A stretch of DNA of 50,859 nucleotides from Armatimonadota bacterium (GCA_029553475.1 JAKPKV010000033.1:1-50859); one strand, 5' to 3'. Numbered from the stretch's first letter, positions 1,175 to 17,674 are shown. Numbers and translations are program-made. Notes: a model not told the origin generated them from the letters alone.

Positions 1175-1218
1175 AATTGTGGTGAGGCATTGACATATTT
1201 ATGAAGGAGGAGAAGCCC

Positions 1219-2337
1219 ATGGGACGAGCCATACGAGGGTTTACCCTCATCGAGCTGCTGGTCGTCATCGCTATCATTGGCGTGCTGGCCGCCATCCTGT
1301 TCCCGGTCTTCGCCGCGGCGCGCGAAAAGGCGCGGCAAAGCAGTTGTATGAACAACCAGCGCCAAATCGCGATGGCGATCCAGATCTATGCCCAGGACCA
1401 TGACGAGATGTTCCCCACCGCCGGCATCGTCTGGGGCGCGTTGAAGCTGGATGCTGGGGTGATGCGATGCCCGACCGACGCCGGGAAAGCCAACGGGTAT
1501 GTGTACAACAATGCGCTGTCGGGCCAGGCCCTCGGCGAGATCGCCGATCCGGTCGGGATCTTCGTGACCGGGGATGGCCGGCACGCCGCCACTCCTGCCA
1601 CGGTCGCCTACTATGCGACCTATGACAATGTGGCCTATCTCGGGCGCGACATCGTGCGCCGGCACGGGAATAAAGTCATCCTCTCCTATGCTGACGGGCA
1701 TGTGGCGATCTCGGCGGAGACCCCGCCCACCAGCGGCATGCCGCGCCCGCCGATGCCGGAGCCGCAGCCGGTAGTTTGGAAGTACCCCTCGGGCAGTATC
1801 ACCGCCACCACTCCCGGCCAAATAGACTGCACGTTGCCGGAGACCCCTTCTGGCCAGGTCAACGAAGGCGCGGTGAGCACGAAGGCGCTGCTCGGTGACG
1901 GATATTTTTCCTTCAAGCTCAGCCGGTCATTATTTAATGTAAATCTGGTGGCTAATGGGCCCAGGGTCGGGTTCTCCTCCGGGGACTACCTCTCCGGGCC
2001 GGGGCCATATTCGCATAAAGATTCGTCGGTTGCCTATCGGTATTGGTTCGCCGCCGTCGAATATTTCCCGTACTCCGGCATCTCCTGCACCATCGGGGGA
2101 GGCGACAATTATGCGCCGCTGTATGGCGCGTATGAGTGGGATGCGGATACCGTCTTCAAGCTCGAACGCATCGGCACCACGCTGAGTTGGATCGGCATCC
2201 GCGGCACTACTAATACCGTGCTGCGTACCTGCGAGGTCGATGACCTGGAGCCGTTATTTGTCAATGTCTGGTTCAATTCGGGCGTTGGCCTGCGGGAGTG
2301 TCTGCTGCGCGGATATGAATTCGTCGATGTCCCGTGA
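1219..2337 (+). CDS. Pseudopilin with H-x9-DG motif and C-terminal lectin-like domain
   Basis: A 372-residue protein that begins with a type IV prepilin signal ([26 protein letters not shown]), which would be cut after the Gly by prepilin peptidase to leave a hydrophobic helix for membrane or fibre insertion. After about 60 residues the family H-x9-DG motif appears ([12 protein letters not shown]). The last 170 residues, from [20 protein letters not shown] onward, look like a beta-sandwich of the concanavalin/lectin type: a GAxSTK...GDGYFSFK strand, a VGFSSGDY strand, then [14 protein letters not shown] and a [11 protein letters not shown] strand. The start is the ATG behind a strong AAGGAGG at 1204-1210; an upstream ATG at 1201 would place that site inside the coding region. 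It is followed by a paralogue on the same strand. The ligand and true localisation are unknown. Confidence 0.88.
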
Positions 2338-2450
2338 GGACGCACGTTACTCCCCCGGCATCGGCCAGGTTGTCTCAGGTGGGCTTCACAGGGAGCCTGG
2401 GGCAAGGCAACTGGACTACCGCCGGGTGATATTAATTGAGGAGGTCTGTG

Positions 2451-3593
2451 ATGCTACGCAGGCAAGGATTTACCTTGATCGAATTGCTGGTCGTCATCGC
2501 CATCATAGCTGTGCTGGCCGCCATCTTGTTCCCGGTGTTCGGGCGGGTGCGCGAAAAGGGGCGACAGACGAGATGCGTGAACAACTTACGCCAGCAGGCG
2601 CTGGCGCTCACCATGTACGCCCAGGATAACGGCGAGCTATTCTTCCCCAGGCCGGCCAGCGGCACCTGGCCAGCCTATCTGGCCCCCTATCATGAGGACG
2701 GCATCTATGACTGTCCCACCGTGACCGGCCGGGGCTCCGCCTCGGCCCCGGAATATGGATTCAACAGTCACTTGCTCGGCCGCTCGCTGGGGACCATCAA
2801 CCTGGCGGCCGCGCAGCTGCTGATCGCCGACCGCGAGCCTACCGTGGATGGCGCGCTGCTCGACACGCCGAACGACGTGGTTTTCCGCCACCTCAAAGGC
2901 GTCAACGTGGCCTGCGTGGACGGGCACGTGGAGTTCGTCCGCCTGACGGCATCGAACGATGCCGGCGAGGCCATCGATGTCGCGCGCCTCGTCTTCGAAC
3001 CGTACCCTGAGCCCGAAGACGTGGCCTGGAAAAATATCAAATCGACCAGCGATAACACCTCCGCCAACCTGGCCGTCAGCGCCCGCCTCAGCATGGTCTA
3101 CGGCAGTTGCCTCTCCGCCGCGGTCCCGACGGGATGGAACTCGGGCGCCATGTCCACCAAAGCCTTCCCGAGGAATGGCTACTGCACCTTCGAGGTGAGG
3201 CGGATTGATGATGCGGCGAACGTGCTGGTCGGGTTCAGCAAGATTGGTAATCCGGTCAAATATGACTCGACCAGCATCGATTACGCGTTCAGCTTGGGCG
3301 GGTATCCGCCGTACGCGAGGCCGTTGCAGTATGCCATCTCCGGCACCTGGCGCCAGACGATGGATGCGGGGGACATCACCTTCGACCTCAATAGCCCGCT
3401 TACCATCGAACGGCGCGGCTCCCGTATCTATCTCATCAAGGGCAGTTTCACCGACGGCGTCGTCGTGCACACCTTCAAGGATGTGCCCACCAACGCCACC
3501 TATCGCATCGACGCGGTGCTGCAGAACACCGCCAGCGGCGGCCCCATCAGGCTCACCCGCTTCCGGATGGCCGGCAGCTCGGTGACCTACTGA
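2451..3593 (+). CDS. Pseudopilin paralogue with H-x9-DG motif and lectin-like C-terminus
   Basis: A 380-residue paralogue of the preceding gene. It has a prepilin leader ([28 protein letters not shown]), a basic REKGRQ segment and the H-x9-DG motif ([12 protein letters not shown]). Its C-terminal sandwich domain has the same order of landmarks: [38 protein letters not shown], then [15 protein letters not shown]. The start is ATG with GAGGAGG at 2438-2444; a TTG a few codons upstream is unlikely. About 110 bases separate it from its paralogue, so the pair may share a transcript. Such proteins are usually secreted or surface-exposed minor pilins. No pilus assembly gene is in the window. Confidence 0.88.
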
Positions 3594-3659
3594 TCCCGCT
3601 GCGGCGCTGGCCGGGCGCCCGTCCGGTCAATGTACTGCCATCCGCGCAGCAGGGCACGC

Positions 3660-3962
3660 CCGGCCCTGGCATCGACGGGCGTGTATTGGATGCCCGTGAT
3701 GCAAGTGCTCGAGGCGCGTGGCTTCGACGTCGTCCTCGTGAATCCCGCGCACACCAAGCATGTGCCGGGGCGGAAGACCGCTATGGAGGACTGCCAGCGG
3801 CTGCAACAATTGCATAGCTATGGCCTGTTATCCGCTTCGTTTCGTCCGGCCTTTGAGATCATCGTGGTCCGTGCCTATTGGCGGCAGCGAGACCAGCTGG
3901 TCCGGCAAGCCACCACGGCCATTCAGCATATACAGAAAGCGTTAGACCAGATGAATCTCCAT
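3660..3962 (+). pseudogene. IS110-family transposase remnant
   Basis: About 100 codons match the central part of IS110-type DEDD transposases: ALASTGVYWMPVMQVLEARG, VNPAHTKHVPGRKT, LQQLHSYGLL, SFRP and IQHIQKALDQMNL. Both the N-terminal catalytic segment and the C-terminal Ser-containing domain are missing. The conserved glutamate of ESTGVYW is Ala, and the first aspartate of the KTDVxD motif is also Ala, so two of the metal-binding residues are gone. Downstream the frame loses all similarity. This is a decayed fragment in the gap between the pseudopilins and the heme cluster and cannot encode an active enzyme. Confidence 0.8.
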
Positions 3963-4135
3963 TCAATACGGACTGGGATTGGAACGGCATCAGCGCCTCG
4001 ACGGGGACGGTGGATTACCTCAAGTACGATCCGGACCCGGCCTCGCCCTACCACCGGCCAGTCGTGGCGTCTACCTTTGCGGATGTGCTGCACACGGGGC
4101 AACGTGACGCCCCACGACAGAGAGCTGATAGCCGA

Positions 4136-4173
4136 GGGCCGGCATCGGTTTCCGGCCCACACCGAGGCTTTTT
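4136..4173 (+). terminator. Possible terminator hairpin
   Basis: GGGCCGG (4136-4142) pairs perfectly with CCGGCCC (4152-4158) around a 9-base loop. A run of five T follows at 4169-4173, ten bases after the stem. It lies in the gene-free stretch 3963-4315, which otherwise shows nothing recognisable beyond a short open frame of unknown origin. Confidence 0.3.
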
Positions 4174-4315
4174 GCACGGCTTCAAATGGTAGCGGGTCGC
4201 CACGTGATGATCCACGGCAGCTACGCGACCGGTGACGGTTTCGCTGTGACAGGTGCGGGTAGGCGTTGATGAGGAAACCCCGCATACAACCGTTCCGATG
4301 CCAGGGTCGTATGGG

Positions 4316-5419
4316 TTACCGCGACGGTGCCGCCGCTGCCGTGAAACCGGGCGGGAGGTAGGCGCAATCCGGCTCTTCATCGAGGTAATTGCCGGTTTTG
4401 GCGTAGGCGCGGGCGCGGCAGCCCTGGCAGAGTTTGCGGAAGCCGCAGGCGCCGCATTTTCCGGTGAGGGTGGAGACGTCGCGCAGGTTGGCGAAGACGG
4501 CCGACTCGCGCCAGATCTCGCCCAGCGATCGCTCGCGGACGTTGCCGACGACGAGGGGGAGGTAGCCGCAGGGCTGCACCTCGCCGACGCGCGAGACGAA
4601 GCAGACGCCGGAGCCGGCGAGGCAGCCGCGGGTGACGGCGGACAGGCCGTGACCATGCCCCGCGGGCATCTCGTAGCCTTTGCGCATCGCCACCTGGCGC
4701 ATGATGCGCAGGTAGGTGGGGGCGCAGGTGGCCTTGATGTGGAGGCGATCCTTCAAGGCGAAGGATTGCTCGGCCAGCCATTCGAGGACGGCTTCGCTCT
4801 GTTCGGGGGACAGGCGCGTATCCTCACCGATTTCCGCGCCGCATCCCACCGGCACCAGCATGAAGACGTGGAAGGCGTCGGCGCCGCGCTCGAGCAGCAG
4901 CGCGAGGATGTCTTCCAGCTCGGCGAGGTTGTGCTTGGTGATGGTGACGTTCGCCTGCAGCGACATGCCGTGGCGCTTGAGCGCGTCGAACCCGTCCAGC
5001 GCCGCTTGAAAGCTGCCGGGCACGCCGCGGAAGACATCGTGCGTGCCGGGACGGCTGCCGTCCAGGCTGATGCTGACGCGCTGAATGCCGCTCCGCACGA
5101 TGCGGCGGGCGGTATCGTCATCCACCAGCGTGCCGTTGGTGGCCATGGCGACGCGCGTGAAGAGCCGGCTGCACTCCTCGGCGATCTGGAAGAAATCCGG
5201 GCGCGCCAGCGGCTCGCCGCCGGTGAGGATCATGATCGGGTCGGCGTCCTGGCGAATTTCCCAGGCCACGCGCAGCACCTCTTCGGTGGTGAGCTCCCCG
5301 GCGGCGAAGCCCTCCATCGCCTCCGCGCGGCAATGCACGCAGCGCAGGTTGCAGCGCGCGGTGAGCTCCCAGAAAACCAGGCGGAGCGGATATTCCTGTG
5401 CCGGATGGGCGGGATGCAT
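4316..5419 (-). CDS. ahbD: Radical SAM/SPASM protein, AhbD-like heme synthase
   Basis: A 367-residue radical SAM enzyme with the Cx3Cx2C cluster motif CNLRCVHC (residues 23-30), the GGEP motif (ILTGGEPLARPDF) and a C-terminal SPASM-type cysteine set (CGACGFRKLCQGCRARAYAKTGNY...EPDC) for auxiliary clusters. This layout, directly behind ahbC, matches AhbD, which oxidatively decarboxylates two propionates of iron-coproporphyrin III to give heme b in the siroheme-dependent pathway. It starts 3 bases after the ahbC stop, and its GGAGGAA Shine-Dalgarno site lies inside the end of ahbC, so translation is probably coupled. A peptide-modifying SPASM enzyme is the alternative, but no precursor peptide is seen and the neighbours are all heme or cytochrome genes. 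Confidence 0.85.
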   Translation of the reverse strand: MHPAHPAQEYPLRLVFWELTARCNLRCVHCRAEAMEGFAAGELTTEEVLRVAWEIRQDADPIMILTGGEPLARPDFFQIAEECSRLFTRVAMATNGTLVDDDTARRIVRSGIQRVSISLDGSRPGTHDVFRGVPGSFQAALDGFDALKRHGMSLQANVTITKHNLAELEDILALLLERGADAFHVFMLVPVGCGAEIGEDTRLSPEQSEAVLEWLAEQSFALKDRLHIKATCAPTYLRIMRQVAMRKGYEMPAGHGHGLSAVTRGCLAGSGVCFVSRVGEVQPCGYLPLVVGNVRERSLGEIWRESAVFANLRDVSTLTGKCGACGFRKLCQGCRARAYAKTGNYLDEEPDCAYLPPGFTAAAAPSR

Positions 5420-5422
5420 GCG

Positions 5423-6610
5423 TTATTCCTCCAGGCCGATTTCCGCGTCGGTCAGGTAGCAGGCCGGGTCGGGCGCCCAGATGTCGCCGGTGACCGCTTC
5501 CGCGCGCACGCGAAAATTGCCGTTGCAGATGTCCAGGTATTGGCAGGCGGCGCAGCGGCCGTGCAGTTTCTTCTTGCGGTCTTTCAGGCCGTCCAGCACC
5601 GGGTCGGACCGATCCTGCCAGATTGCGCTGAAGGGGCGGCGGCGGACGTTTCCCAGGGAGTAGTGGCGCCAGAACTGGTCGGCGTAGACTTCGCCGTCCC
5701 AGCTCACGCAGCCGATGCCGATGCCAGAGCTGTTGCCGCCGTTCATGCGCAGCAGGCACAGGGCCTCCCCGGCGCGCGCGGGGTTCTCACGCAGCAGGCG
5801 CAGGTAGAGATACGGCCCGTCGCAGTGATTGTCCACGGTGAGCACTTCCGCCGGAAAGCCGTCGCGGTGCAGTTGCGCGGTACGATCCATGATCAGGTCC
5901 ACGGCGGCGCGGGATTCCGCGCCGGTGAGGGCGTCCTTCACCAGTTTCGTGCCGCGCCCGGCGTAGACGAGATGGTAGAAGCAAATGCGCGGGATGCGCT
6001 CGGCGTGCAGCAGGTCAAAAATGCCGTGCAGGTCCTGCACGTTGCGGCGGTTCATGGTGAAGCGGAGGCCCACCTTGATGCCGGCAGCCTGGCAGTTGCG
6101 GATGCCCTCCAGCGCCATGCGGAAAGCGCCTTTCATCCCGCGAAAATGGTCGTTCGTCTCCTCCAGTCCATCCAGGCTGATGCCGACGTAGGAGAGGCCG
6201 AATTCCTTCAGCTTTTCCGCCAGCTCGGCGGTGATCAGCGTGCCGTTCGTAGAGATGACGGCGCGCATGCCGCGCTCCCGCGCGTGACGGATGAGGGCGA
6301 GGATGTCGGGCCGCATCAGCGGCTCGCCGCCGGAAAACAGCATCACCGGCGCGCCGAAGGCGGCCAGATCGTCAAGCAGGCGCCGACCTTCCTCGTGCGT
6401 CAACTCGCCGGTATATTCCAGGTCTCTGGAGTGGGCGTAGCAATGCACGCAGCGCAGGTTGCAGCGCTGGCCCACGTTCCACACCACCACGGGTTTCTTA
6501 TCGCGCGAGAACTGCAGCAGATGCGACGGCAGCGCGTTCGACCGCGCGCCGTAGCGCAGCACGTCCGAGGATTCCACGGTGCCGCAGTAGAGTTTCGAGA
6601 TACCGATCAT
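5423..6610 (-). CDS. ahbC: Radical SAM protein AhbC, 12,18-didecarboxysiroheme deacetylase
   Basis: A 395-residue radical SAM protein with the typical AhbC opening (MIGISKLYCGTVESSDVLRYG, then LPSHLLQFSRDKKPVVVWNV), the cluster motif CNLRCVHC at residues 50-57, GGEP (LFSGGEPLMRPD) and C-terminal cysteines CAACQYLDICNGNFRVRAE. In the alternative heme pathway AhbC removes two acetate side chains from 12,18-didecarboxysiroheme to form iron-coproporphyrin III, the substrate of AhbD encoded next. AhbA and AhbB and the earlier siroheme genes are not in this window. It follows ccsA by 20 bases on the same strand. Confidence 0.9.
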   Translation of the reverse strand: MIGISKLYCGTVESSDVLRYGARSNALPSHLLQFSRDKKPVVVWNVGQRCNLRCVHCYAHSRDLEYTGELTHEEGRRLLDDLAAFGAPVMLFSGGEPLMRPDILALIRHARERGMRAVISTNGTLITAELAEKLKEFGLSYVGISLDGLEETNDHFRGMKGAFRMALEGIRNCQAAGIKVGLRFTMNRRNVQDLHGIFDLLHAERIPRICFYHLVYAGRGTKLVKDALTGAESRAAVDLIMDRTAQLHRDGFPAEVLTVDNHCDGPYLYLRLLRENPARAGEALCLLRMNGGNSSGIGIGCVSWDGEVYADQFWRHYSLGNVRRRPFSAIWQDRSDPVLDGLKDRKKKLHGRCAACQYLDICNGNFRVRAEAVTGDIWAPDPACYLTDAEIGLEE

Positions 6611-6630
6611 ACGCGTCTATCCAGTTTCCG

Positions 6631-7449
6631 TCAGTTCGCGTAAACATGCACGCTCGACGAGGCGGACGGCAGCACGTTCAGCAGCAGCCAGCAGAACGCC
6701 ACCGTCAGTCCCGCGCCGAAGACCAGCGACAACTGCATCCGCGGCGCGAGCTTCACGCGGGCGTCCAGATGCAGATAGAGGAGGATGGCCGCCCACGAGA
6801 CGAAGGCGGCGGTCTCCTTCGGGTCCCAGCTCCAGTAATGTCCCCAGGCGATCTTCGCCCAGTAGGCGCCGAGCAGCATGCCCAGCGTGAGCAGCGGGTA
6901 GGCGATGCGCATGAGCACCCGCAGGTCGTCGAGCACCGGCGCGCCGGGCATCATGTCGGGGACGAATGACGCCACAAAGTACCATAATGCCATCAGGCCG
7001 GCAACGGCCAGCGCCGCGTAGGAGAGCATGTAGACCAGCACGTGCGGGGCGAACCACGGGCTCTGCAGCGCGGGCATCAGCTCTGTGCTGGGCGTCTCGT
7101 TCATCGCCAGCGCGCCGATCAGAAACGCCAGGCCCACCACGAGCGTGGGGACGGCCTGCGCGCGCGTGCGGCGCGTCCATTCCATGCCCAGAGTGACCGG
7201 CGGCAGGAAGAAGGCCGCCCACAGCAGCGTCTGCGGGATGGAGCGCATGGGCGGATGCCCGAGATGCTGCCACAGGTCCACGAGATACACGGCGAGGAGC
7301 ACCCATCCGATGATAAGCGGCAGCGTCGCCAGCAGCCCGCGGGTGCGCTGCTGGAAGGCCGGGATATTGCCGAGCAGATAGCCCGTGAGTGCAACGCACC
7401 AGAGGGCGAACGCCGACCAACCGAGGATGAGAAAATGCTGATGAATCAT
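6631..7449 (-). CDS. ccsA: Cytochrome c biogenesis protein CcsA/ResC-like
   Basis: A 272-residue integral membrane protein with about eight hydrophobic helices and the tryptophan-rich WWD signature (AWGHYWSWDPKET, residues 201-212) that presents heme to apocytochromes. Histidines at about 136 (WFAPHV) and 268 (SVHVYAN) sit where family members carry heme ligands. With ResB it forms the system II synthase, which moves heme across the membrane and ligates it to CXXCH cysteines. The start codon lies one base after the resB stop, so the two are translationally coupled. The size is on the short side of the family but all core elements are visible. Confidence 0.9.
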   Translation of the reverse strand: MIHQHFLILGWSAFALWCVALTGYLLGNIPAFQQRTRGLLATLPLIIGWVLLAVYLVDLWQHLGHPPMRSIPQTLLWAAFFLPPVTLGMEWTRRTRAQAVPTLVVGLAFLIGALAMNETPSTELMPALQSPWFAPHVLVYMLSYAALAVAGLMALWYFVASFVPDMMPGAPVLDDLRVLMRIAYPLLTLGMLLGAYWAKIAWGHYWSWDPKETAAFVSWAAILLYLHLDARVKLAPRMQLSLVFGAGLTVAFCWLLLNVLPSASSSVHVYAN

Positions 7450-7450
7450 A

Positions 7451-8746
7451 TCAGGCGGCCTCCTCCGCGCGCTCCTCCGGCTTTCGTCGCGGCGCCCAAC
7501 AGGCGATGAAGGCGCCGAGCACCATGCAGACCAGTCCGGTATACACGATGGGCAGCGCCGGGTCTCTCACCGCCTGCAGCACGGTATAGGCGGGGACGGC
7601 GCTGTCCTGGTCGTAGCTCGATTGGTACAGGCGCCAGGGGCCGATGCGCGCGGGTTTATTCACCTCGATGACGGTCTCCACCGGCTGTTTGCCGTCTTCA
7701 GCGATGGTCACGAACGACTGATACCGCTTCGGCATGCGGCTCGCGCGCAGCATGAGCACATGGCTGTCGCCGATCCGCAGGATGTGCTCCATGCCTTCCG
7801 CGACCCACCCCATGCCGGTGACGCCGCCCGCGGTGGCGTAGGCGACTTTTGCCGCGGCCAGGCCGTGGTGCGGGCTTTCCCGCCAGGCGCCGTCCTCCGT
7901 CAGGAAGGCGGAGGGGAGATATTCCTGGACGGTGACGGTCATACCGTACGCGGTGAAGACGTGGCCTTTCGTCACCAGCGCCTGGTCCGCGACGTGGAAA
8001 TCCGCTTTGCCGTGCATCATCGCCGGCATGTCAATCGCAAAGAGCGAGGTTTTCGCCGGATAGTAGTCAATGTTGAAGCGATCGAGGGTGACGGAGCCGC
8101 CGAGGCGATGCGTGAGCTTGCGCTCGTCATCGCTAATTGAACTGATGGTCTGGTTCGTGAACAGCGCGAAGGATGGTTTTCGGAGCTGCGCGGAACCGGC
8201 GATCATGCCGCCCATCACCAGCAGCAGCCCGAGGTGATTGAGCATGAAGCCGATGAATCCCGGGCGCGGCGCGGCGAAGCGGCGGCCGATGACCATCGCC
8301 AGGTTCAGCATGATGAGCAGCGACGCCGCCAGGAAGGGCAGCGAGGTGAAGAGATCGCGCAGGCCCCACTCGGACAGCGGATCATGCGTATGCCCTTGCG
8401 CGATGAGGATGCCGGCCAGCCCCAGCAGCGTGTACAACGTGATGCCGGCGACGGCGAACTGCACGCCGGAGAGCCAGCGGATGACGCGGTCGCCGCGGCC
8501 GATGGCGCTCACCGCCATCGCCCCCAGCACGAATGCGCCGGGCAGGATCCAGTTCATCGGGACCGGGATGACGGGGCTGATGCCTCTCCGATGGAGGACG
8601 AATTCCACGCAGAAGGCGACAAACAATATCCCGCCTTGCAGCAGGAACGCCTCGGGCCATCCCCAGGGGAGCTGCCAGACTTCGCGGCGCGAGGGTGGGG
8701 GAGCAGCCGGATGCTCCACCGGGACCGCTTCTTGTGTGTTGACCAT
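7451..8746 (-). CDS. resB: Cytochrome c biogenesis protein ResB/Ccs1-like
   Basis: A 431-residue membrane protein with a cluster of four N-terminal transmembrane helices (about residues 32-51, 65-82, 96-117 and 136-154), the conserved segment NHLGLLLVMGGMIAG (His about 171), a large extracytoplasmic beta-rich domain and one C-terminal helix (IVYTGLVCMVLGAFIACW). This is the ResB/Ccs1 layout of system II cytochrome c maturation, and ccsA follows immediately. The frame is open upstream, but the extension is non-coding in character; MVNTQEAV is the first good start, with AGGA about 14 bases upstream. A 194-base gap separates it from the cytochrome gene before it, so it may also have its own promoter. 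Confidence 0.9.
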   Translation of the reverse strand: MVNTQEAVPVEHPAAPPPSRREVWQLPWGWPEAFLLQGGILFVAFCVEFVLHRRGISPVIPVPMNWILPGAFVLGAMAVSAIGRGDRVIRWLSGVQFAVAGITLYTLLGLAGILIAQGHTHDPLSEWGLRDLFTSLPFLAASLLIMLNLAMVIGRRFAAPRPGFIGFMLNHLGLLLVMGGMIAGSAQLRKPSFALFTNQTISSISDDERKLTHRLGGSVTLDRFNIDYYPAKTSLFAIDMPAMMHGKADFHVADQALVTKGHVFTAYGMTVTVQEYLPSAFLTEDGAWRESPHHGLAAAKVAYATAGGVTGMGWVAEGMEHILRIGDSHVLMLRASRMPKRYQSFVTIAEDGKQPVETVIEVNKPARIGPWRLYQSSYDQDSAVPAYTVLQAVRDPALPIVYTGLVCMVLGAFIACWAPRRKPEERAEEAA

Positions 8747-8940
8747 AGTGTCGTCAATCCTGTTCGTTGCTGATGACGGCAACGGGTATCCGTCCGTTTC
8801 GACCCTATTGTGCCCGCTGCCCTTCCCGGTTACACGAGAATTCAAGTCGTTTTTCTCATGGATGGGAAAAGATTTAACGCCAGGTCGCTCGAACAAGGCA
8901 AGGGCCGGGCGCGACCTAGCGTATGATCCCCCCGGATGCG

Positions 8941-10986
8941 CTAGTCGTTGCCTGGCGGCGGACCGCACGGCGGCAGCACGCGCTTGAGGAACTGGGCAAC
9001 CAGGCTGAGCGCCAGCAGGACGCCGGCCGACCAGAGATGCTGGCGGACATCCGGCATGCCCGCGCGCGACATGATGAAGACGGTGATGAGGATGGTCACC
9101 GCGATGCACAGGCTCATCAGGCTGAGCGCGTTATAGCCTTCCATGAAGCGGTTGGCCGTCTGCACGTCGCCGATATTGCAGAGACGCTGCCGGTACCCGA
9201 GCACAATCAGGCTGAGTAGCGCGAGGATTGCCCCCGCCGCCAGCACTTGGCTGAAGACGCGCGACAGCGGAATCACCACCGTCTTTTCAATCGTAAAGCG
9301 GGCATGGCTGGCGTAGGAAAAGGCGAATTCCCGCGGGTTGCCTTCGTGGCACTTCGCGCAGACCTTCGGCAGGTTGCGGGGGTGGGTGGGCGAGGAGGGC
9401 AGGTGGGCGGGCACGATGCCGTGCAGGCCGTGGCAATCCGTGCAGGTCGCTTCGTCGGTACGCCCCAGCCGCATGACGCCTTTGCCGTGCACGGTCGCCT
9501 CATAGGCGGGCACGGTGTCCGGCAGTTTATTGTAGCGCGCCATGCGCGCGTCATCGCGATGGCACTGTGCGCAGAGTTCCACCTTCTGCCGCGGCGTCAG
9601 ACCCTTCGGCGAGGGGATGGAGTGGCCGACGCCGCCGTGACAGGAGACGCAGGTCGGGTGATCGCCGAGCACTTTATCGGGGCGGGCGTGCACGTCATCT
9701 TTCAGGGCGATGTTCAACTCCGTATGGCAGGAGACGCAGGCGGCCTCGACCTGCTTGCGCGTCTGGCCGGGGTCGGTCGAGATGAGCTTGGGATTCGCCG
9801 GGTGGCAATCCACGCAGCCCGGTTTCTTCGCGTCAGCCGCGCCGCCCGTGCGGCCGTGCACGCTGTGCGCCAGCGTCGTCACCGCGCCGACGTGACAGGC
9901 TTTGCAGGAGGACTCCCTGGTCAGCGGATCTACGGCGGATGACGGGGTGACGGCGTGCTGGTCATGCCCGTGGCAGCTCAAGCAGTTCAGTTTTGCCCCG
10001 CCCTTCACGCGGCCGGGCCCGTGGGCGCCGGAAATGAGGTGCTCGGTCTGGTCGGGGTGGCAGCGCTCGCACAGCGCGGAGCGCTCCGTCTCGGTGAGCT
10101 GTTTCGCGTGTCCGATGGCGTGCGGCTGCGCGCCGTGGCAATCGAAGCAGCCCAGTTGTTTCCCGGTCTTCGCGCCGGCGTGGCCGTGGGCGCTGGACGC
10201 CAGGCGCGCGGCGATGTCACCGTGGCACGTGCGGCACGACGCGTCGGCGTTCGGCGCGGTGGACTTCACCGGAGTAGCAATGCGGTGCGGATTGCCGCCG
10301 TGGCAGGACAGGCAGGAGAGCTGATGATCCTTCCCGCCTTCGGCGGGCCCATGCGCGCTGCCGGTCAGCATCTTCGCCTGCGCGGCGTGGCATTGCCAGC
10401 AGGTGGCATCGCCGGCGACGTGCGCGGCGCGCGGAGCCTGCAGCGTGTGCGGATCGCCGCCGTGGCAGGTGGCACAGTCCGGCGCCCCGGCGCCGGCGCG
10501 CGCGGCGGCGTGCACGCCTGTGCCCAGCCCACGGGCTTCGTCCTGGTGGCAGCGGGCGCAGAACGCCGTGCTTGTCGGCAATTTCGCCGCCGGGGTGATC
10601 TCGTGCGCGTTGCCGCCGTGGCAGGACTGGCAGGCGCCGCCCTTCTTGGCCGACTTCGCATGCACGCTGCGCGAGACCGCGGTCACCTTCCCGGCGTGGC
10701 AGGTCTGGCAGGCCGGCTTCTTCGCGATGGCGCCCTCGGGGTGGGGCACGCGGTCCACGCCGGTGTGGCAGAGCTGGCAGGCCAGCCGTCCATGGGCGGA
10801 GGAGGCGAAGCGCGCCCCATCCATCGTCTCCCCGTGGCAGGCCAGGCACGCCTCGGTGTCCGCCGGCGCGATCATCATCGCCTCGTCGTCATCCGCGCGG
10901 CCGATCTGTACCGTGGCGACGAAGAGGAGACCGAGCACCGCGAAGAGGATCGCGGTTATCCGATACGGACGTTTGAACCGAAACAT
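8941..10986 (-). CDS. 19-CXXCH multiheme cytochrome c with three-helix C-terminal anchor
   Basis: A 681-residue protein. An N-terminal signal anchor (residues 10-27, ILFAVLGLLFVATV) leads into 19 CXXCH motifs counted between residues 47 and 547, many in pairs with SCHGGNPH-type spacing that supplies distal histidines. Three hydrophobic helices follow (about 571-598, 619-640, 650-668). The heme region should be exported and held at the membrane. The last heme block (ATCTDCHGLHG, then CAKCHEGN...F) and the first (APADTEACLACHGE) match its neighbour at 11565-14252, so the two are paralogues with different tails. The start is chosen at MFRFKRPYRI because it gives a proper signal; 43 upstream codons are discarded. 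The partner oxidant or reductant is unknown. Confidence 0.92.
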   Translation of the reverse strand: MFRFKRPYRITAILFAVLGLLFVATVQIGRADDDEAMMIAPADTEACLACHGETMDGARFASSAHGRLACQLCHTGVDRVPHPEGAIAKKPACQTCHAGKVTAVSRSVHAKSAKKGGACQSCHGGNAHEITPAAKLPTSTAFCARCHQDEARGLGTGVHAAARAGAGAPDCATCHGGDPHTLQAPRAAHVAGDATCWQCHAAQAKMLTGSAHGPAEGGKDHQLSCLSCHGGNPHRIATPVKSTAPNADASCRTCHGDIAARLASSAHGHAGAKTGKQLGCFDCHGAQPHAIGHAKQLTETERSALCERCHPDQTEHLISGAHGPGRVKGGAKLNCLSCHGHDQHAVTPSSAVDPLTRESSCKACHVGAVTTLAHSVHGRTGGAADAKKPGCVDCHPANPKLISTDPGQTRKQVEAACVSCHTELNIALKDDVHARPDKVLGDHPTCVSCHGGVGHSIPSPKGLTPRQKVELCAQCHRDDARMARYNKLPDTVPAYEATVHGKGVMRLGRTDEATCTDCHGLHGIVPAHLPSSPTHPRNLPKVCAKCHEGNPREFAFSYASHARFTIEKTVVIPLSRVFSQVLAAGAILALLSLIVLGYRQRLCNIGDVQTANRFMEGYNALSLMSLCIAVTILITVFIMSRAGMPDVRQHLWSAGVLLALSLVAQFLKRVLPPCGPPPGND

Positions 10987-11011
10987 AAGCCCCCCTGCCG
11001 GTCCCGGCGCA

Positions 11012-11554
11012 TCAGCGGACGGATGGCTCGCTGGCCGTGGGCGCCTGGTCGTCCCTATCCAGCATGCGCGCGAACCAGGGAAAGCGCCGTGCGGCCAAGC
11101 CCAGCCAGCGCGCAAGGAGCGGCACGGGCCACGCTTCCGCCCAGGTGATGAAGAGCAGCAGCAGGCCGGTGCCGGCCAGCGCCGCGGGCGCCAGCGGCGG
11201 GCGCGGGTCGAAGATCAGCCGCTCGAGGAGGATCGCCAGGGTGATCTCTTTCATATTCCCGAAGGCGATTTCCAGGTGGATGACGGTGCCGACAAGGCCG
11301 ACAACCATCGCCAGCACGCCGGTCACCCAGGCCTGCCGGCGCAGGCGGCGCGAGAAGGCCGTCGCGACGGAGATGATGGTGGCGACCAGGCAGAAGACCA
11401 CCGGCATCACCGCCATGAAATGGTAGTGGCGATATCCGAAGTGCAGCAGCGCCATGTCAATGCCGAGCATGAAGAAGGTGATGGCGCTGTACAGCGCGAT
11501 CAACGCCCCCCAGGGGAAGCGGATGATCGGGTGCGACGGCTCCTTGTGCAGCAT
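11012..11554 (-). CDS. Four-helix membrane protein of the cytochrome cluster
   Basis: A 180-residue protein with four predicted transmembrane helices (about 16-38, 46-67, 76-96 and 120-141) and a basic, cytoplasmic-looking C-terminus. I do not recognise the family. Several histidines lie at helix edges (LLHFGYRHYHF, TVIHLEI), so a heme-binding or quinone-site role is possible but unproven. It lies 10 bases after the cytochrome-b fusion gene and 25 bases before the second multiheme cytochrome, so it is almost certainly co-expressed with them and may link the two in one membrane complex. Confidence 0.75.
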   Translation of the reverse strand: MLHKEPSHPIIRFPWGALIALYSAITFFMLGIDMALLHFGYRHYHFMAVMPVVFCLVATIISVATAFSRRLRRQAWVTGVLAMVVGLVGTVIHLEIAFGNMKEITLAILLERLIFDPRPPLAPAALAGTGLLLLFITWAEAWPVPLLARWLGLAARRFPWFARMLDRDDQAPTASEPSVR

Positions 11555-11564
11555 ACGTGATACC

Positions 11565-14252
11565 TCATGATGTCAGCGACGCGTCGCCGGCGGATTCGGC
11601 GTCGAGGCGCACTTTTTCCAGCGGGTGCTCGCGCGCCATCTCTTCCTCGCTCATCGTGCCGGTCCACCAGACCGGGTTCATCGGGAACATGTCCGGGTTG
11701 AAGTGCGTATTGTAAAAATGCCAGACGAGAATCGCCATCAGCGCCAGCGTCCCCTCGTAACTGTGGGCGATATAGGCGAAGCCAAAGGCCCAGTCGGGCA
11801 GGTGGTTGCCGATGGCCACCGGGAACCAGAGGATGAATCCGGTGGTGCCCATGACGATGGTCCCCCAGATGTCGGCGAAGTAGTCGAATTTCTCGCGGAA
11901 CTGGAAGCGCTCCCACTCCGGCAGGTGCTTGCGCAAGCCCAGGCCCCATTTGAAGTAATCAATGACGTCGCGCACATCCTTCCAGGTGGGGAACATCGTC
12001 CAGGATTTTAGCGAGAAGCGATGCTTCTTCCAGCGATACAGCAGGTAGAAGAGATGCCAGATCCAGTTCGTCACCATCAGCAGACCGGCGACGCGATGCA
12101 CGATGCGCGCGCCCTCCAGGCCGCCGAAGGGGACGAGCAGGTAACGCGTCCATTCCACCTGCGCGAAGTGCAGCGGGAAGCCGGTGAGCACCAGCAGCGT
12201 GAAGCTGAGCGCGAGCAGACCGTGCTGCCAGCGCTGGCACAGCGTGAAGCGTTGATACACGCGCCCGCCGCCGCCGTGCGCGCCCAGGCGCTTGCGGCGC
12301 AGGTAGTTGAGGGTATAGGCGATGATGGCGATGACCACCGACGCCACCCAGAAAATCCAGGCGAAGGGCAGGTGGAGATAGGCGAAGATAATGCCGCCGA
12401 CCAGCGCGAGCAGCCCGGCGGAGATAAGGAGGGTGATGGGCTTGCCGCACGCGGGCAGGCAGTCCGGATCAAAGAGTTTCCGGCGCAGGTCGAGGAGCAC
12501 CATGATGAAGAGGAAGGACATGGCGCCGTAGATGAGCCACATGAAGGCCATCTCTTCAATACGCAGGATAGGATTCTGCGCGATCTTCAGGCGCAGGTGG
12601 TTTGCGCCGGACATGGCGAAGTTCATCTTCGCGCCGGGGTGGCACTGCCCACAGGTGGCGGCGACATTGGCCGGGTTCACCGGTGAGTCCGCAGCATCGG
12701 GCGCCATCACCGCGTGCAGCCCGTGGCAGTCCGTACAGGTCGCGGAGCCCGCCATCTTGAAGTTGACCACGGCGCGCCCGTGGAAGCTTTGCCGATACGA
12801 GCTGACGGAATCGGTGGTCATCCCGTAGCGCCCCATCAGCGCGGCGTCATCATGGCAGCGGCTGCACAGCACTACCTGGTCACGCGGTGTCGGCGCCGGC
12901 GGTTTGGTGATGCCGTGCGCGCTCGCGCCATGCACGCTGTCGGTGTGACAGGTGAGGCAAGTGGGATGATCGCCGGCGACTATATCCGGCAAGTCATGCT
13001 TGCTGGTGCCGGGCATGGCCACTTTGTCGGCGTGGCAGCGTTGGCAGAGGGCGACGAGCTGCGCGGCCGTGCCGGCGTTGATGGTCTGCACGGCGTGCGG
13101 ACCAGCGCCGTGGCAGGCGAAACAGCTTGCGGGCGTGCCGTTCTCCGTGAACGCATCGCGATGCACGCTGTCGCGCAGGGCGCGCGCGGCATCGGCATGG
13201 CAGGCGCGGCAGGCGGCGTCGCGCGGTTGGGCGGCCAGCGCCGCGGCTTTCGCCACGCCGTGCGCCTTCTCGCCGTGACAGGTCACGCACTGCGGCGCGT
13301 TCGGCTTCCCGACCGCGACGGCGCGGCCGTGCACGCTGGTCGTCATGGCCTGCGCCACCCCGGCATGGCACGCCGCGCAGCGGGCGGAGGCGGCCGCCGC
13401 GTCCCGCGGGGGCGGCTGAATGCGGTGGGCATCGGCATCATGGCAGGCGCGGCAGCTCTGGCCGGCGTGGGCCGTGCCCGCCATCGCCGTCAGGCTCTCC
13501 CGATGACAGGCGCGGCAGGCGGCATCCGTCTTCGCGGAGGGCGCCGGCGCGCGCCGCACGGCATGCATGCTGCCGGTATGGCAGGCGGCGCAGGCCAGCG
13601 CCGCCCCTTTGTGGACGCTGCCGGCCAACGCGGTGTGGACATCATCATGGCAGGCGCGGCAACTCTCCTCTTTCGCGCGGGCGCCCGGCGGGCGGATGGC
13701 GTGCGGGTTGCGCTCGTGGCAGGCGCGGCAGCCCGCGCGCGGCCCGCCGCTGATGCCGGGCTGCCCGTGAATGCTCCGCTTCACCGCGGCGGCTTCTCCC
13801 GCGTGGCAGGCGGCGCAGGCGGCATCCTGCGCCGCCGGCGACTGCGCGCGCGCGCGAGTGATGGCATGGGCGCTGCCGGGGTGGCAGCTCCGGCAGGTGG
13901 GCGCCTTCCCCTTCGCGGCGCCCGCGCGATGGACGCTGCCGGCCATTTGCGCGCCGATCCGCGCGTGACAGCTCGCGCAGGCGGCCTTGTTCGCGACGGC
14001 CTGCTCCGGGTGCGGGAAGCGGTCAACGCCGCGGTGACATGCCTGGCAGGTGACGTTCCCGTGCGCGGATGACGCCAGCTTCGCCATGTCGGCGGCGTCG
14101 CCATGGCAGCCCAGGCAGGTTTCCATGTCCGCGGGCGCGATGATGTCCGCGTCATCCTGGGCCAGGGCGGGGGAAAGGCGGGAGGAGAACGCGGTCAGCC
14201 CTGCCGCCAGCGCAAGGGAGACGACATACAGGAACCAGGCAGCTTTACGCAT
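11565..14252 (-). CDS. 19-CXXCH cytochrome c fused to a b-type cytochrome membrane domain
   Basis: An 895-residue fusion. It has a cleavable-looking signal (residues 1-32, ending SPALAQ), then 19 CXXCH motifs between about residues 46 and 538, then a membrane domain with about seven helices (566-588, 605-625, 628-650, 676-692, 715-738, 797-815, 828-848). The second half of that domain resembles the cytochrome b561/hydrogenase or formate dehydrogenase b-subunit fold: QRWQHGLLALSFTLLVLTG, RIVHRVAGLLMVTNWIWH and AHSYEGTLALMAILVWHFYNTHFNPDMFP, with histidines near 677, 719, 733, 830 and 845 as candidate heme b ligands. The general plan recalls the fused quinone-linked cytochrome CbcL of Geobacter, but with about twice as many c hemes. 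It probably passes electrons between the quinone pool and exported hemes. It is the first gene of the minus-strand cluster. Confidence 0.9.
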   Translation of the reverse strand: MRKAAWFLYVVSLALAAGLTAFSSRLSPALAQDDADIIAPADMETCLGCHGDAADMAKLASSAHGNVTCQACHRGVDRFPHPEQAVANKAACASCHARIGAQMAGSVHRAGAAKGKAPTCRSCHPGSAHAITRARAQSPAAQDAACAACHAGEAAAVKRSIHGQPGISGGPRAGCRACHERNPHAIRPPGARAKEESCRACHDDVHTALAGSVHKGAALACAACHTGSMHAVRRAPAPSAKTDAACRACHRESLTAMAGTAHAGQSCRACHDADAHRIQPPPRDAAAASARCAACHAGVAQAMTTSVHGRAVAVGKPNAPQCVTCHGEKAHGVAKAAALAAQPRDAACRACHADAARALRDSVHRDAFTENGTPASCFACHGAGPHAVQTINAGTAAQLVALCQRCHADKVAMPGTSKHDLPDIVAGDHPTCLTCHTDSVHGASAHGITKPPAPTPRDQVVLCSRCHDDAALMGRYGMTTDSVSSYRQSFHGRAVVNFKMAGSATCTDCHGLHAVMAPDAADSPVNPANVAATCGQCHPGAKMNFAMSGANHLRLKIAQNPILRIEEMAFMWLIYGAMSFLFIMVLLDLRRKLFDPDCLPACGKPITLLISAGLLALVGGIIFAYLHLPFAWIFWVASVVIAIIAYTLNYLRRKRLGAHGGGGRVYQRFTLCQRWQHGLLALSFTLLVLTGFPLHFAQVEWTRYLLVPFGGLEGARIVHRVAGLLMVTNWIWHLFYLLYRWKKHRFSLKSWTMFPTWKDVRDVIDYFKWGLGLRKHLPEWERFQFREKFDYFADIWGTIVMGTTGFILWFPVAIGNHLPDWAFGFAYIAHSYEGTLALMAILVWHFYNTHFNPDMFPMNPVWWTGTMSEEEMAREHPLEKVRLDAESAGDASLTS

Positions 14253-14449
14253 AATGGCAATCTCAATGCTGATGTTGGAGAGCGAAAAGCGCTCTGGACG
14301 ATGGTCCCAATCACGAGCCGACCCGCGGGCGCGGGACCGCCGCACGCGCCGCTGAGCACTATTTCAGCGACCGCAGGTAGACACCTTCACCCGCTGCCTG
14401 CGCGCGTACGCACGGCACGAACCGGCCTGACGTCTCATCCCTCACTCGA

Positions 14450-14479
14450 AAAGTAGCATAGCGGAGCCGATGATGTCAA
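14450..14479 (-). promoter_or_regulatory. Candidate promoter of the cytochrome/heme operon
   Basis: On the minus strand TTGACA (14479-14474) and TACTTT (14455-14450) are 18 bases apart, giving a leader of about 190 bases before the 19-heme fusion gene. It is back to back with the rrf2 promoter, whose -35 is about 110 bases away. Confidence 0.5.
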
Positions 14480-14588
14480 CACTCCCGATGGACTGCATCA
14501 ACTATCAGCGGGCGCATCGCGGGGCTGCGCGCGGTGCGCGCGAGTGCCTGCCCGCGGAGTAAATATTGTGAAAAAATGCGCAAATGCG

Positions 14589-14617
14589 TTGACGATTGCT
14601 GATACTCCGGGTAAACT
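14589..14617 (+). promoter_or_regulatory. Candidate promoter of the Rrf2 regulator gene
   Basis: TTGACG (14589-14594) and TAAACT (14612-14617) have the ideal 17-base spacing. The -10 overlaps an inverted repeat described separately, as expected for autoregulation. Confidence 0.6.
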
Positions 14618-14631
14618 ATATCAGGTAGTTT
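14613..14631. promoter_or_regulatory. Candidate Rrf2 operator
   Basis: AAACTATATCAGGTAGTTT has 6-base perfect inverted arms (AAACTA/TAGTTT) around a 7-base centre and overlaps the -10 element of the regulator's own promoter. Its size and position suit a dimeric Rrf2 repressor. A related half (ACTATCAG) occurs near 14500 in the same divergent region. Confidence 0.4.
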
Positions 14632-14692
14632 GGTGAAGATCGTGTGCGCGCAGGATCCGCACCGCTCGCCGGCCTCGCAAAGGAGGGCATCC

Positions 14693-15139
14693 GTGAAACT
14701 ATCAACCCGCTCGACTTATGGACTGCGCGCGCTGGCCGTGCTGGCCTGTAAATACGGTCAGGGACCGGTACTCCTGCGCGATATCGTGGAAATCCAGCAC
14801 CTTCCCACCACCTACCTGGAGCAGCTGATGGTGCTCCTGCGCAAGTCGGGGTTGGTGACCGCCACCCGCGGCGTCAACGGCGGGTATCGCCTGACGCGCG
14901 ACCCGCGGGAGGTGACGCTGGCGGAAGTCGTGCAAATCCTCGAAGGCCCGATCAACCTCGTCGAATGTTCCGCCATCGTCAATTGCGACCGCCAGCCTGA
15001 ACACTGCGCGCTGCGCCACATTTTGAACGGCGCCAGCCAGGTGCTCACCGACTACCTGAGCAGCATCACCCTCGCCGAGCTGTGCGAGCAGCAGCGCGCC
15101 ATCAACGAACGCCTGGGGCTTGCCACCGCCATCGTCTGA
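14693..15139 (+). CDS. Rrf2-family Fe-S transcriptional regulator
   Basis: A 148-residue Rrf2 protein. The winged helix is clear (STRSTYGLRALAVLA, LRDIVEIQHLPTTYLEQLMVLLRKSGLV, RGVNGGYRL), followed by three cysteines at 92, 98 and 105 (VECSAIVNCDRQPEHC), nearly the positions of the [2Fe-2S] ligands of IscR (92, 98, 104). It is therefore likely to sense redox state, iron-sulfur status or nitric oxide. The start is a GTG behind AAAGGAGG at 14679-14686; the longer upstream frame is not needed. Placed divergently from the heme/cytochrome operon, it is the obvious candidate to control it and itself. Confidence 0.9.
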   Translation: MKLSTRSTYGLRALAVLACKYGQGPVLLRDIVEIQHLPTTYLEQLMVLLRKSGLVTATRGVNGGYRLTRDPREVTLAEVVQILEGPINLVECSAIVNCDRQPEHCALRHILNGASQVLTDYLSSITLAELCEQQRAINERLGLATAIV

Positions 15140-15535: not shown

Positions 15536-17674
15536 ATGACGATGACTGCTTCGCGGGAACAGGCGAATACGATGCTGGCGCTGGGCAACGGCGTGACCAT
15601 CGAGCTGCTCGTCGAACACGGCGACCTGCGCGGACTGGGCGGCGTCTGGGCGCAGGGCGTGGCGCTGCGCAACGGCGCGGTGCCGCTGGCGCCGTATCTG
15701 AAGTCGGACACGGGGGTGCTCTTCACGCGCTTCCGGCTGGAGCGCACCGAGCCGCTGCCGGAAGGCGGGTATGCGGTCCACACCACTGCCATCGGCATCC
15801 CGACGCTGGAAAGCGCCTACGAGGACGAATACAACGGCGTGCAGGCGCTGGTGGGCCTGCTGGAGCGTCCGCTGGAAGCCGAGGTGGTCTGGCTGCTGCG
15901 GCCGGAAGCGCTGCAGATACAGGAGACAGGCTACACGGGTTTCTCCTACGCCTGGCGCTATCGCTCGACGGATGCCAGGCTCTTCCGCGTGCTGGTCACC
16001 GCCACCTGGGAGATCGGCGGCGCGGCGGACGGCAACACCGTGCTCTCCACCGGACAGGTGACGCCGCCGGTGTATGTCGCGGAGAAAGACACCCATTTCA
16101 CCAGCGCCTGCCTCAAGCAGCTCACGCGCTTTGGCGACCCGCTGGGGATGTCGTTCCAGCTCACCCCGCGCTTCGGGCTGCACCAGCCCTTTGACTTTCT
16201 CGGTCATGCGCGGGGCACGCTGCTCGGCTGCTGGCCGGAGAAGGCGGACGTGCGCGCCTTCCTGCAAAAAAACCCCGGCGAGGACGTGATCTTCGTGGTA
16301 GACGCGACGCATTTCCCGCTGACCGATGCCGTGGAGATCCCGCGCAAGTGCATCCTCTTCGCGCCCGCTGACGCCGCGGACATGCCGGAGCACGTGCTGC
16401 GCAACCGCTGGAAGGACGCACATGATCACTGCGGCGCGGCGGCCCGCGCCCACTTCCAGATCACGCGCTCGCGGCCGCTGCCGGAATCCACCATCGGCTA
16501 CGGCACGCGCCTGATGGACGACGGCAGCGTGCAGATGCGCGTGGGCGACGCCTGGGTGCCGTCGCAGGAGTGGCTCATCGCCATGGCGGATACCTATTTC
16601 GCCGAGCTGGCCGCGCGGGGCATCCGTCGCGTGATTCCGCAGCCCATCGTGCAGACCGACCCCTCCGAGCGCGGGCGAGACTGCAAGCTGCACCGGGGCA
16701 TTCACGGCGACCTGAACGTCGGCTCCGTCTGCTGCGTGCATCGCTACGTGCCGGCGGACATGTGGGGCGGCATGGCGGCGTGGCAGTATTACTACCGCAA
16801 GGCGCACGCATACGGCATGGAAGTCGGGCACTGGATCGGCCCCCACCTCTCCTACCACGCGCCCATCGTGCAGGAGCATCCCGACTGGGTGTGCCGCACC
16901 TCCACCACGCTGGCGGCGTCCGGCGGGTATCCGAATTTTGAGCTGGCGTGCATGAACTGGAACACCGGCGTGCGCCGGTGGATCTTCGAGGATATCGCGC
17001 GCTGGAAAGCGGAGGGCGGGCTGGATTACGTCTGGTTCGACTCGCTGGGCAACCTGGGCATGGTCCCGGTGGATTTTTCCCAGGGTATGCAGCCCAGCAC
17101 CTTCGCGCTGGCCGAATTCATCGCCGACCTGCAACGCATCGGCATCGCGAACATCGCGGTGGAAGGGGTGAGCCCGTTCGGCGTCGCCGGCTGCGGCATG
17201 TTCGATCCCAACCAGGGGCAGATCCGCGACGCGCAGGCCATCGTCGGGCAGAACACGCTGGACTGGCTGGTGGGCAACGAAGACATGTGGCCCGACCAGC
17301 AGCCGCGCATCGAGCTGCACCGCGACCGCACGGAAGAGGAGGCGCGGCAGATCTTCTTCCGCTTCCTCGCCAGCCGTACGGTGCCGATGCTCGGCCGCTT
17401 CTCACGAGGCTTTGGGCCGAAGCCCGCGTGGTTCACGGCGTATCTTGACACGTATTTCGCCGTGGAGGACGATCTCGTGCGCCGGCTATTGCTGCCCGGG
17501 CGCCAGGCGGTGCGCTGGACGGGCGGCGGCGCCGATGTGCTCTTCGCCTTCGCGCCGGTGGCGGTGCCGGCCGCCGGCGCCGTCGAGCGCATAGACGCGG
17601 GCGTCGCCGCGCCGGTGGCGCACGACGGCACGCTGCGCGCGGACCCCTGGACGGTCCACCGCCTGCACCGGTAG
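15536..17674 (+). CDS. Glycoside hydrolase-like TIM-barrel protein (GH36/melibiase-like)
   Basis: A 712-residue protein without a signal peptide. The N-terminal half (to about residue 330) looks like a beta-sandwich domain. The middle looks like an alpha-galactosidase-type TIM barrel: YRKAHAYGMEVGHWIGPHLSYHAPIVQEHPDWV (about 420-452), then GLDYVWFDSLGNLG (about 495-508), where Asp502 takes the place of the family nucleophile, then IANIAVEGVSPFGVAG. A short C-terminal beta domain follows. The match is by overall pattern rather than a diagnostic signature, so GH36-related is the best guess and the substrate is unknown. The start is ATG behind GAGAAAGAG. It is a monocistronic gene between palindromic DNA and the sigma factor region. 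Confidence 0.65.
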   Translation: MTMTASREQANTMLALGNGVTIELLVEHGDLRGLGGVWAQGVALRNGAVPLAPYLKSDTGVLFTRFRLERTEPLPEGGYAVHTTAIGIPTLESAYEDEYNGVQALVGLLERPLEAEVVWLLRPEALQIQETGYTGFSYAWRYRSTDARLFRVLVTATWEIGGAADGNTVLSTGQVTPPVYVAEKDTHFTSACLKQLTRFGDPLGMSFQLTPRFGLHQPFDFLGHARGTLLGCWPEKADVRAFLQKNPGEDVIFVVDATHFPLTDAVEIPRKCILFAPADAADMPEHVLRNRWKDAHDHCGAAARAHFQITRSRPLPESTIGYGTRLMDDGSVQMRVGDAWVPSQEWLIAMADTYFAELAARGIRRVIPQPIVQTDPSERGRDCKLHRGIHGDLNVGSVCCVHRYVPADMWGGMAAWQYYYRKAHAYGMEVGHWIGPHLSYHAPIVQEHPDWVCRTSTTLAASGGYPNFELACMNWNTGVRRWIFEDIARWKAEGGLDYVWFDSLGNLGMVPVDFSQGMQPSTFALAEFIADLQRIGIANIAVEGVSPFGVAGCGMFDPNQGQIRDAQAIVGQNTLDWLVGNEDMWPDQQPRIELHRDRTEEEARQIFFRFLASRTVPMLGRFSRGFGPKPAWFTAYLDTYFAVEDDLVRRLLLPGRQAVRWTGGGADVLFAFAPVAVPAAGAVERIDAGVAAPVAHDGTLRADPWTVHRLHR

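Follow-up and report, generated by a model that had tools for sequence, protein, structure and literature searches.

The presence of genes for terminal heme synthesis, for cytochrome c assembly and for very large multiheme cytochromes in one row of an Armatimonadota genome raises the question of whether such a row is an electron transfer module or a set of ordinary heme genes with cytochromes for neighbours. The row lies in a stretch of 50,859 nucleotides (GCA_029553475.1 JAKPKV010000033.1:1-50859), the whole of which is referred to here as the window. The original prediction described an unusually self-contained system that supplies, attaches and uses heme under one regulator. The reading to which the present analysis leads, and which we hold to be marginally probable, is that the locus encodes the half of an extracellular electron transfer system that lies in the inner membrane and periplasm, grouped with the genes for the last steps of heme synthesis and for heme attachment.

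Organization of the locus

Seven minus-strand genes with short gaps had been predicted, and all of these, together with the divergent rrf2 that makes the eighth, were found at nearly the predicted positions. Read 5' to 3', the row starts with the larger cytochrome gene (14252-11565) and ends with the AhbD-like gene (5419-4316). The features are as follows.

3630-4235, plus strand: IS110-type transposase fragment (NF033542 over 109 of 343 positions)
4316-5419, minus strand: AhbD-like radical SAM/SPASM protein (heme b synthase); TIGR04545 is the best NCBIfam model, CX3CX2C at residue 23
5423-6610, minus strand: AhbC, 12,18-didecarboxysiroheme deacetylase (TIGR04546)
6631-7449, minus strand: CcsA, System II heme handling protein (PF01578, 1e-25; TIGR03144 is the best model)
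7451-8746, minus strand: ResB, System II partner (PF05140, 1e-19)
8941-10986, minus strand: 19-heme c-type cytochrome with a signal peptide and C-terminal membrane helices (Cytochrome_C7/Paired_CXXCH)
11012-11554, minus strand: four-helix membrane protein (from its helices)
11565-14252, minus strand: c-type cytochrome with 19 hemes, continued by about seven membrane helices that include a diheme-b domain (PF01292, 3e-10)
14445-14594, no strand: divergent control region (alignment with the same-genus locus L087; consensus scan)
14693-15139, plus strand: Rrf2-family regulator (PF02082, 5e-36; TIGR00738)

The intergenic gaps among the seven minus-strand genes measure 1-25 bp, except for 194 bp between the 8941-10986 cytochrome gene and resB, a gap that could house a separate promoter. 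On the far side of rrf2, positions 15536-17674 encode a 712-residue protein with no Pfam match, whose homologue in a same-genus genome lies about 3.4 kb past the rrf2 of that genome. At the other end, two neighbouring proteins (1201-3593) have prepilin-type N-termini (...FPVF), which are common in Armatimonadota and Planctomycetota.

Heme synthesis and cytochrome maturation genes

The AhbC of the window scores 700 bits against TIGR04546, over the cut-off of 650 bits, and its AhbD-like neighbour scores 423 bits against TIGR04545, under the cut-off of 500 bits. The low score is not disqualifying, since the same model gives just 437 bits for an AhbD that belongs to a complete Ahb cluster, in a Kiritimatiellota genome. 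The ahbD gene adjoins ahbC in the window, in the same genus, in the same family and in Kiritimatiellota. Likewise, CcsA and ResB are adjacent and match their Pfam models over the cut-off, as expected of System II.

Earlier steps of the pathway are encoded elsewhere in the genome. One strand of contig C34 carries HemA, HemB and SUMT-HemD; the opposite strand carries HemL, a SirC-like gene, another HemA and HemC. The two HemA (glutamyl-tRNA reductase) genes of C34 (L242:2636-3910 and L138:12339-13709) lie one in a porin-cytochrome row and the other after HemL and the SirC-like gene. The siroheme decarboxylase subunits AhbA and AhbB are fused in a single ORF of 338 residues on contig C161 (L136:7177-8193), with both subunit models over the cut-off; several genomes of the class and a Kiritimatiellota genome likewise have single ORFs that match the AhbAB profile. 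The Ahb route of this genome thus comprises a fused AhbAB, an AhbC over the cut-off, and an AhbD which is a best-model match below it.

Profile searches of the genome found the window AhbC as the sole AhbC-level match and the window CcsA as the sole PF01578 match, and a protein search found the window ResB as the sole ResB homologue. The AhbC model revealed no second full-length AhbD relative in the whole genome, and ferrochelatase (PF00762), detected in 8 of 14 control genomes, had no match in it. Judged by these searches, the window encodes the last two steps of the single heme route that is evident in the cell, together with the sole evident cytochrome c synthetase. Because AhbC, CcsA and ResB are single-copy and no ferrochelatase was found, the heme genes of the window must supply every hemoprotein in the cell, and they are not dedicated to the 19-heme pair, since NrfHA and other cytochromes also need them. 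NrfHA is encoded on contig C40, unlinked to the module, and heme-copper oxidases are encoded in the genome as well. The claim of a self-contained system is therefore not supported, on two counts: the earlier heme genes are on C34 and C161, and the sole copies in the window serve other cytochromes too.

The same observations favour a simpler reading, namely that these are ordinary heme and cytochrome c genes, beside which the 19-heme pair lies since both are needed at low oxygen, with no dedicated module. The heme-copper oxidases and NrfHA would draw on the same heme, the 194-bp gap before resB separates the two parts of the row, and another genome of the same family (G109) carries an ahbC-ahbD pair without a multiheme neighbour. 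Plain adjacency does not, however, lead one to expect that several families repeat the grouping with different AhbC lineages and multiheme proteins, nor that it would almost never be met in other phyla (both described below). We regard this reading as unlikely, yet as one to be taken seriously.

The multiheme cytochromes

Two membrane cytochromes with 19 CXXCH motifs each had been predicted, and exactly 19 were counted in both 8941-10986 and 11565-14252. Such numbers are not due to chance, because no further ORF in the window exceeds one CXXCH. The two proteins share 38% identity over 582 residues with all 19 hemes in register, and their alignment score is 983 against 39 +/- 20 for shuffled sequence; judged from this alignment, they are paralogues.

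The larger protein has in addition a b-type domain (PF01292) within its membrane helices, which was absent from the original prediction. Its histidines 677, 719, 733, 830 and 845 are invariant in an alignment of 49-51 homologues, and this fits two bis-His b hemes. The module would therefore total about 38 c and 2 b hemes, so that the predicted 38-heme conduit is right for the c hemes and misses the two b hemes. A multiheme c domain and a membrane domain whose His pairs are conserved, two features that mark proteins of the CbcL/Mco type, are thus both present in a single chain.

Elsewhere in the phylum, homologues of the larger cytochrome have 5-11 CXXCH in one chain with the b domain; some have none, their c and b parts being encoded by separate genes. 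Since this is so, the 19 hemes of the b-domain cytochrome look like an expansion specific to the genus; the homologue in the second genome of the genus (G090) has at least 12 CXXCH up to the contig end.

The predicted four-helix protein between the cytochromes was located at 11012-11554, with no match in Pfam or NCBIfam. Among 200 other genomes of the phylum, 8 encode distant relatives of it, none of which was found beside heme or large multiheme genes. AlphaFold without an alignment gave unusably poor models (mean pLDDT of 54 for the large cytochrome's membrane portion and 58 for the four-helix protein, pTM 0.33). Sequence searches of the PDB returned partial multiheme matches alone and no relative of the membrane domain among solved structures.

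The Rrf2 regulator and the control region

A divergent Rrf2 regulator with IscR-like cysteines had also been predicted, and the plus-strand gene at 14693-15139 indeed encodes CX5CX6C. This motif is conserved in G090 and is similar in G058, a genome of the class, and the score of the protein is below the IscR equivalog cut-off. The G090 orthologue is 95% identical and adjoins the cytochrome gene there also. Between the divergent genes, a block at 14445-14510 is conserved with L087 and holds a minus-strand TTGACA-N18-TACTTT, and a block of 33 nt (14562-14594) is identical in G090 and has at its end the TTGACG of a promoter-like site on the plus strand. The two blocks are consistent with divergent promoters. 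The scan for promoter and terminator consensus sequences found site numbers near chance, not above it, and an inverted-repeat search of the rrf2/cytochrome intergenic region gave no clear operator candidate.

Conservation in the genus and a possible route across the outer membrane

G090 retains both ends of the gene row at 75-95% protein identity. One of its contigs carries HemA, a trio of putative porin-cytochrome genes and, 82 bp further, ahbD; next come ahbC, ccsA and resB, where the contig ends (L086); a second contig begins inside the b-domain cytochrome and runs on to rrf2. In the window, the IS110 transposase fragment occupies the site where G090 has the trio. The trio of the window genome lies outside the window, on C34; in both genomes of the genus, then, the trio neighbours heme genes.

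On C34 the trio stands beside HemA and consists of a decaheme protein of the DmsE/GSU2203 type, a protein of 540 residues, and a hexaheme lipoprotein with a lipobox. The 540-residue protein has a signal-peptide-like N-terminus and is GSU2204-like; it has no match to MtrB_PioB and matches NF041027 at 1e-5. Its G090 homologue matches MtrB_PioB (PF11854) at E = 0.003, below the cut-off, and ends in Phe. These matches indicate a porin weakly.

The trio bears on the direction of electron flow. The same hardware could have another use, in that the 19-heme pair might import electrons during Fe(II) or cathode oxidation, or might serve a periplasmic reductase of nitrite or nitrogen oxides. NrfHA is available in the genome, a 28-heme protein at the class level (L070) has an NrfH/NapC-like N-terminus, and a role in iron oxidation has been proposed for MtoAB-like and Cyc2 genes of Armatimonadota MAGs (PMC9671151). 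The location of NrfHA on an unlinked contig and the proximity of the porin trio to heme genes in G090 as well as in the window genome nevertheless speak against such a use, which we consider improbable. NrfH itself is the usual quinol oxidase for NrfA.

Recurrence across the class and the phylum

The original prediction made itself dependent on a conserved neighbourhood. This was looked for and found, as the neighbourhood is kept in the genus and the grouping recurs in other families. The exact gene order was seen in the genus alone, where in G090 it is spread over two contigs with the break in the cytochrome block. Other families of the class have superclusters of 20-25 kb with siroheme-route heme genes, ResB-CcsA, cytochrome b and 28-heme cytochromes. 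For example, L070, L071, L072 with L092, and L073 with L091 combine HemA, ResB, CcsA, cytochrome b, 28-heme proteins, AhbD, HemC, SUMT, AhbC, HemB, AhbAB and HemL, and L073 is headed by an Rrf2 gene. The order in G076 is ResB, 6-heme, CcsA, 9-heme, cytochrome b, 28-heme, AhbD, HemC, SUMT, AhbC, HemB, AhbAB and HemL; in G058 all of this set lies on a single strand and is headed by Rrf2, with HemA beside it. In G083 and G008 the order is HemA, 11-heme, ResB, 7-heme, CcsA, b-domain cytochrome and 28-heme, with AhbC next in G083, where a Rex-like regulator takes the position of the G058 Rrf2. Further versions of the grouping are found in other families of the phylum (G011, G015, G043, G084, G146 and G002) and in one Kiritimatiellota genome. 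Proteins with 28 hemes were observed next to cytochrome b genes across the class and phylum (L070, L071, L072, L073, L096, L069 and L076), and proteins with 32 hemes in L067 and L075.

Of 38 ahbC loci in the phylum, 12 have a gene with at least 5 CXXCH within 10 kb; of 63 such loci in other phyla, 1 does (Fisher p = 2e-5, a test that ignores relatedness and takes as outside loci those closest to the window AhbC). Moreover, in ten genomes from eight families a single contig carries both ahbC and, within about 13 kb of it, a gene homologous to the cytochrome-b cytochrome. The notion that the genes became neighbours by chance and with no functional meaning could appeal to the confinement of the exact order to one genus, on broken contigs. 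It is opposed by the protein identity at both ends of the row in G090, by these two counts, and by recurrence in unrelated genomes. We reject it as highly improbable.

The history of the linkage is less simple than descent from a class supercluster. In the AhbC tree, the family of the window groups with Kiritimatiellota, Lentisphaerota and Methanosarcinales, apart from its own class, and vertical descent of the whole module was rejected for AhbC (family and class held together, AU p = 3e-44). Horizontal transfer is the probable source of the AhbC of this family. The window CcsA matches class copies weakly (59-86 bits), and the window cytochrome shares up to about 50% identity with other families of the phylum against 36-38% with its own class. 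As the AhbC lineage differs from that of the class, the grouping would have been assembled more than once, or its genes replaced in place, and this argues for selection on linkage. It is possible, though on balance doubtful, that the phylum repeatedly merged siroheme-route heme synthesis, System II and giant membrane cytochromes, across AhbC lineages and with horizontal ahbC replacement, into a redox-regulated 'heme production line', the 19+19 pair being a new type of quinol-to-outside conduit with nearly the whole periplasmic path in two membrane-anchored paralogues.

A proposed model of electron export

The locus resembles a module made for electron export. This model stands on the observed gene identities, heme counts, paralogy, b-heme ligands, single copies and neighbourhood conservation; from them we infer the quinol donor, the complex, the direction of flow, the outside acceptor and the joint regulation by Rrf2. 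Electrons from (mena)quinol would enter the diheme-b domain of the 11565-14252 protein, pass from the b hemes to its own 19 c hemes, and from there to the paralogous protein 8941-10986. Both cytochromes and the four-helix protein probably form one membrane complex, and the exit across the outer membrane would be by the trio of decaheme protein, putative porin and hexaheme lipoprotein. AhbC and AhbD would complete heme b from siroheme, ResB and CcsA would export and then attach it, and Rrf2, a putative [2Fe-2S]-type regulator, probably tunes heme supply and use jointly. Electrons could pass to nitrite or oxygen instead, because the genome has NrfHA and heme-copper oxidases.

Compared with the original prediction, which is partly supported, the grouping is wider, with the porin trio and the class superclusters, yet less self-contained. 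Multiheme respiration demands many hemes per protein, and the matching of heme supply to demand is poorly known. In several rearranged forms, this family of loci keeps the genes for heme supply, attachment and use side by side, which makes their coupling testable by comparing linked with unlinked genomes. Multiheme genes beside ahbC, ccsA and resB also offer a compact way to spot electron transfer loci in uncultured lineages.

Comparison with known systems

Multiheme genes have been described in Armatimonadota MAGs, for which iron metabolism was suggested (PMC9671151). A full-text literature search, with most subscription journals outside its scope, found no paper on the linkage of Ahb, ResB/CcsA and multiheme genes. 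In Ahb clusters of Methanosarcinales and Desulfobacterota, AhbC is often accompanied by AhbD, HemB and SUMT, and the window AhbC groups with such lineages. Such loci differ from the window in that just 1 of 63 has a multiheme cytochrome within 10 kb. The trio of C34 and G090 resembles MtrCAB and GSU2203-2204 in combining a decaheme protein, a barrel-like protein and a surface multiheme lipoprotein, and differs from them in its weakly recognised porin and its position outside the window.

In CbcL of Geobacter, a periplasmic multiheme c domain of about nine hemes is joined to a diheme-b domain in the membrane, of the type known from hydrogenase/formate-dehydrogenase cytochrome b. The 11565-14252 protein is likened to it by layout, not by sequence, and departs from it in its 19 c hemes, the extra helices before the b domain, the adjacent 19-heme paralogue and the heme genes in the row. 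Quinol:cytochrome c oxidoreductases of this kind (cytochrome b with a multiheme protein, as in CbcL and Mco) are a known entry point of such systems (PMC9012536). The Mco clusters of ANME encode a cytochrome b with 7- or 11-heme proteins and are proposed to act as a membrane-carrier:cytochrome c oxidoreductase (PMC9012536). The window likewise encodes a cytochrome b together with a large multiheme protein, but it is bacterial, has a single fused chain, and is linked to ResB/CcsA and Ahb rather than to Ccm. Similarly, the maturation protein CcmF2 of ANME lies beside the giant MHC-B cytochrome as a duplicated, specialised copy (PMC9012536). The window also places maturation proteins next to giant cytochromes; unlike CcmF2, its maturation genes are the only copy in the genome, and heme synthesis genes accompany them.
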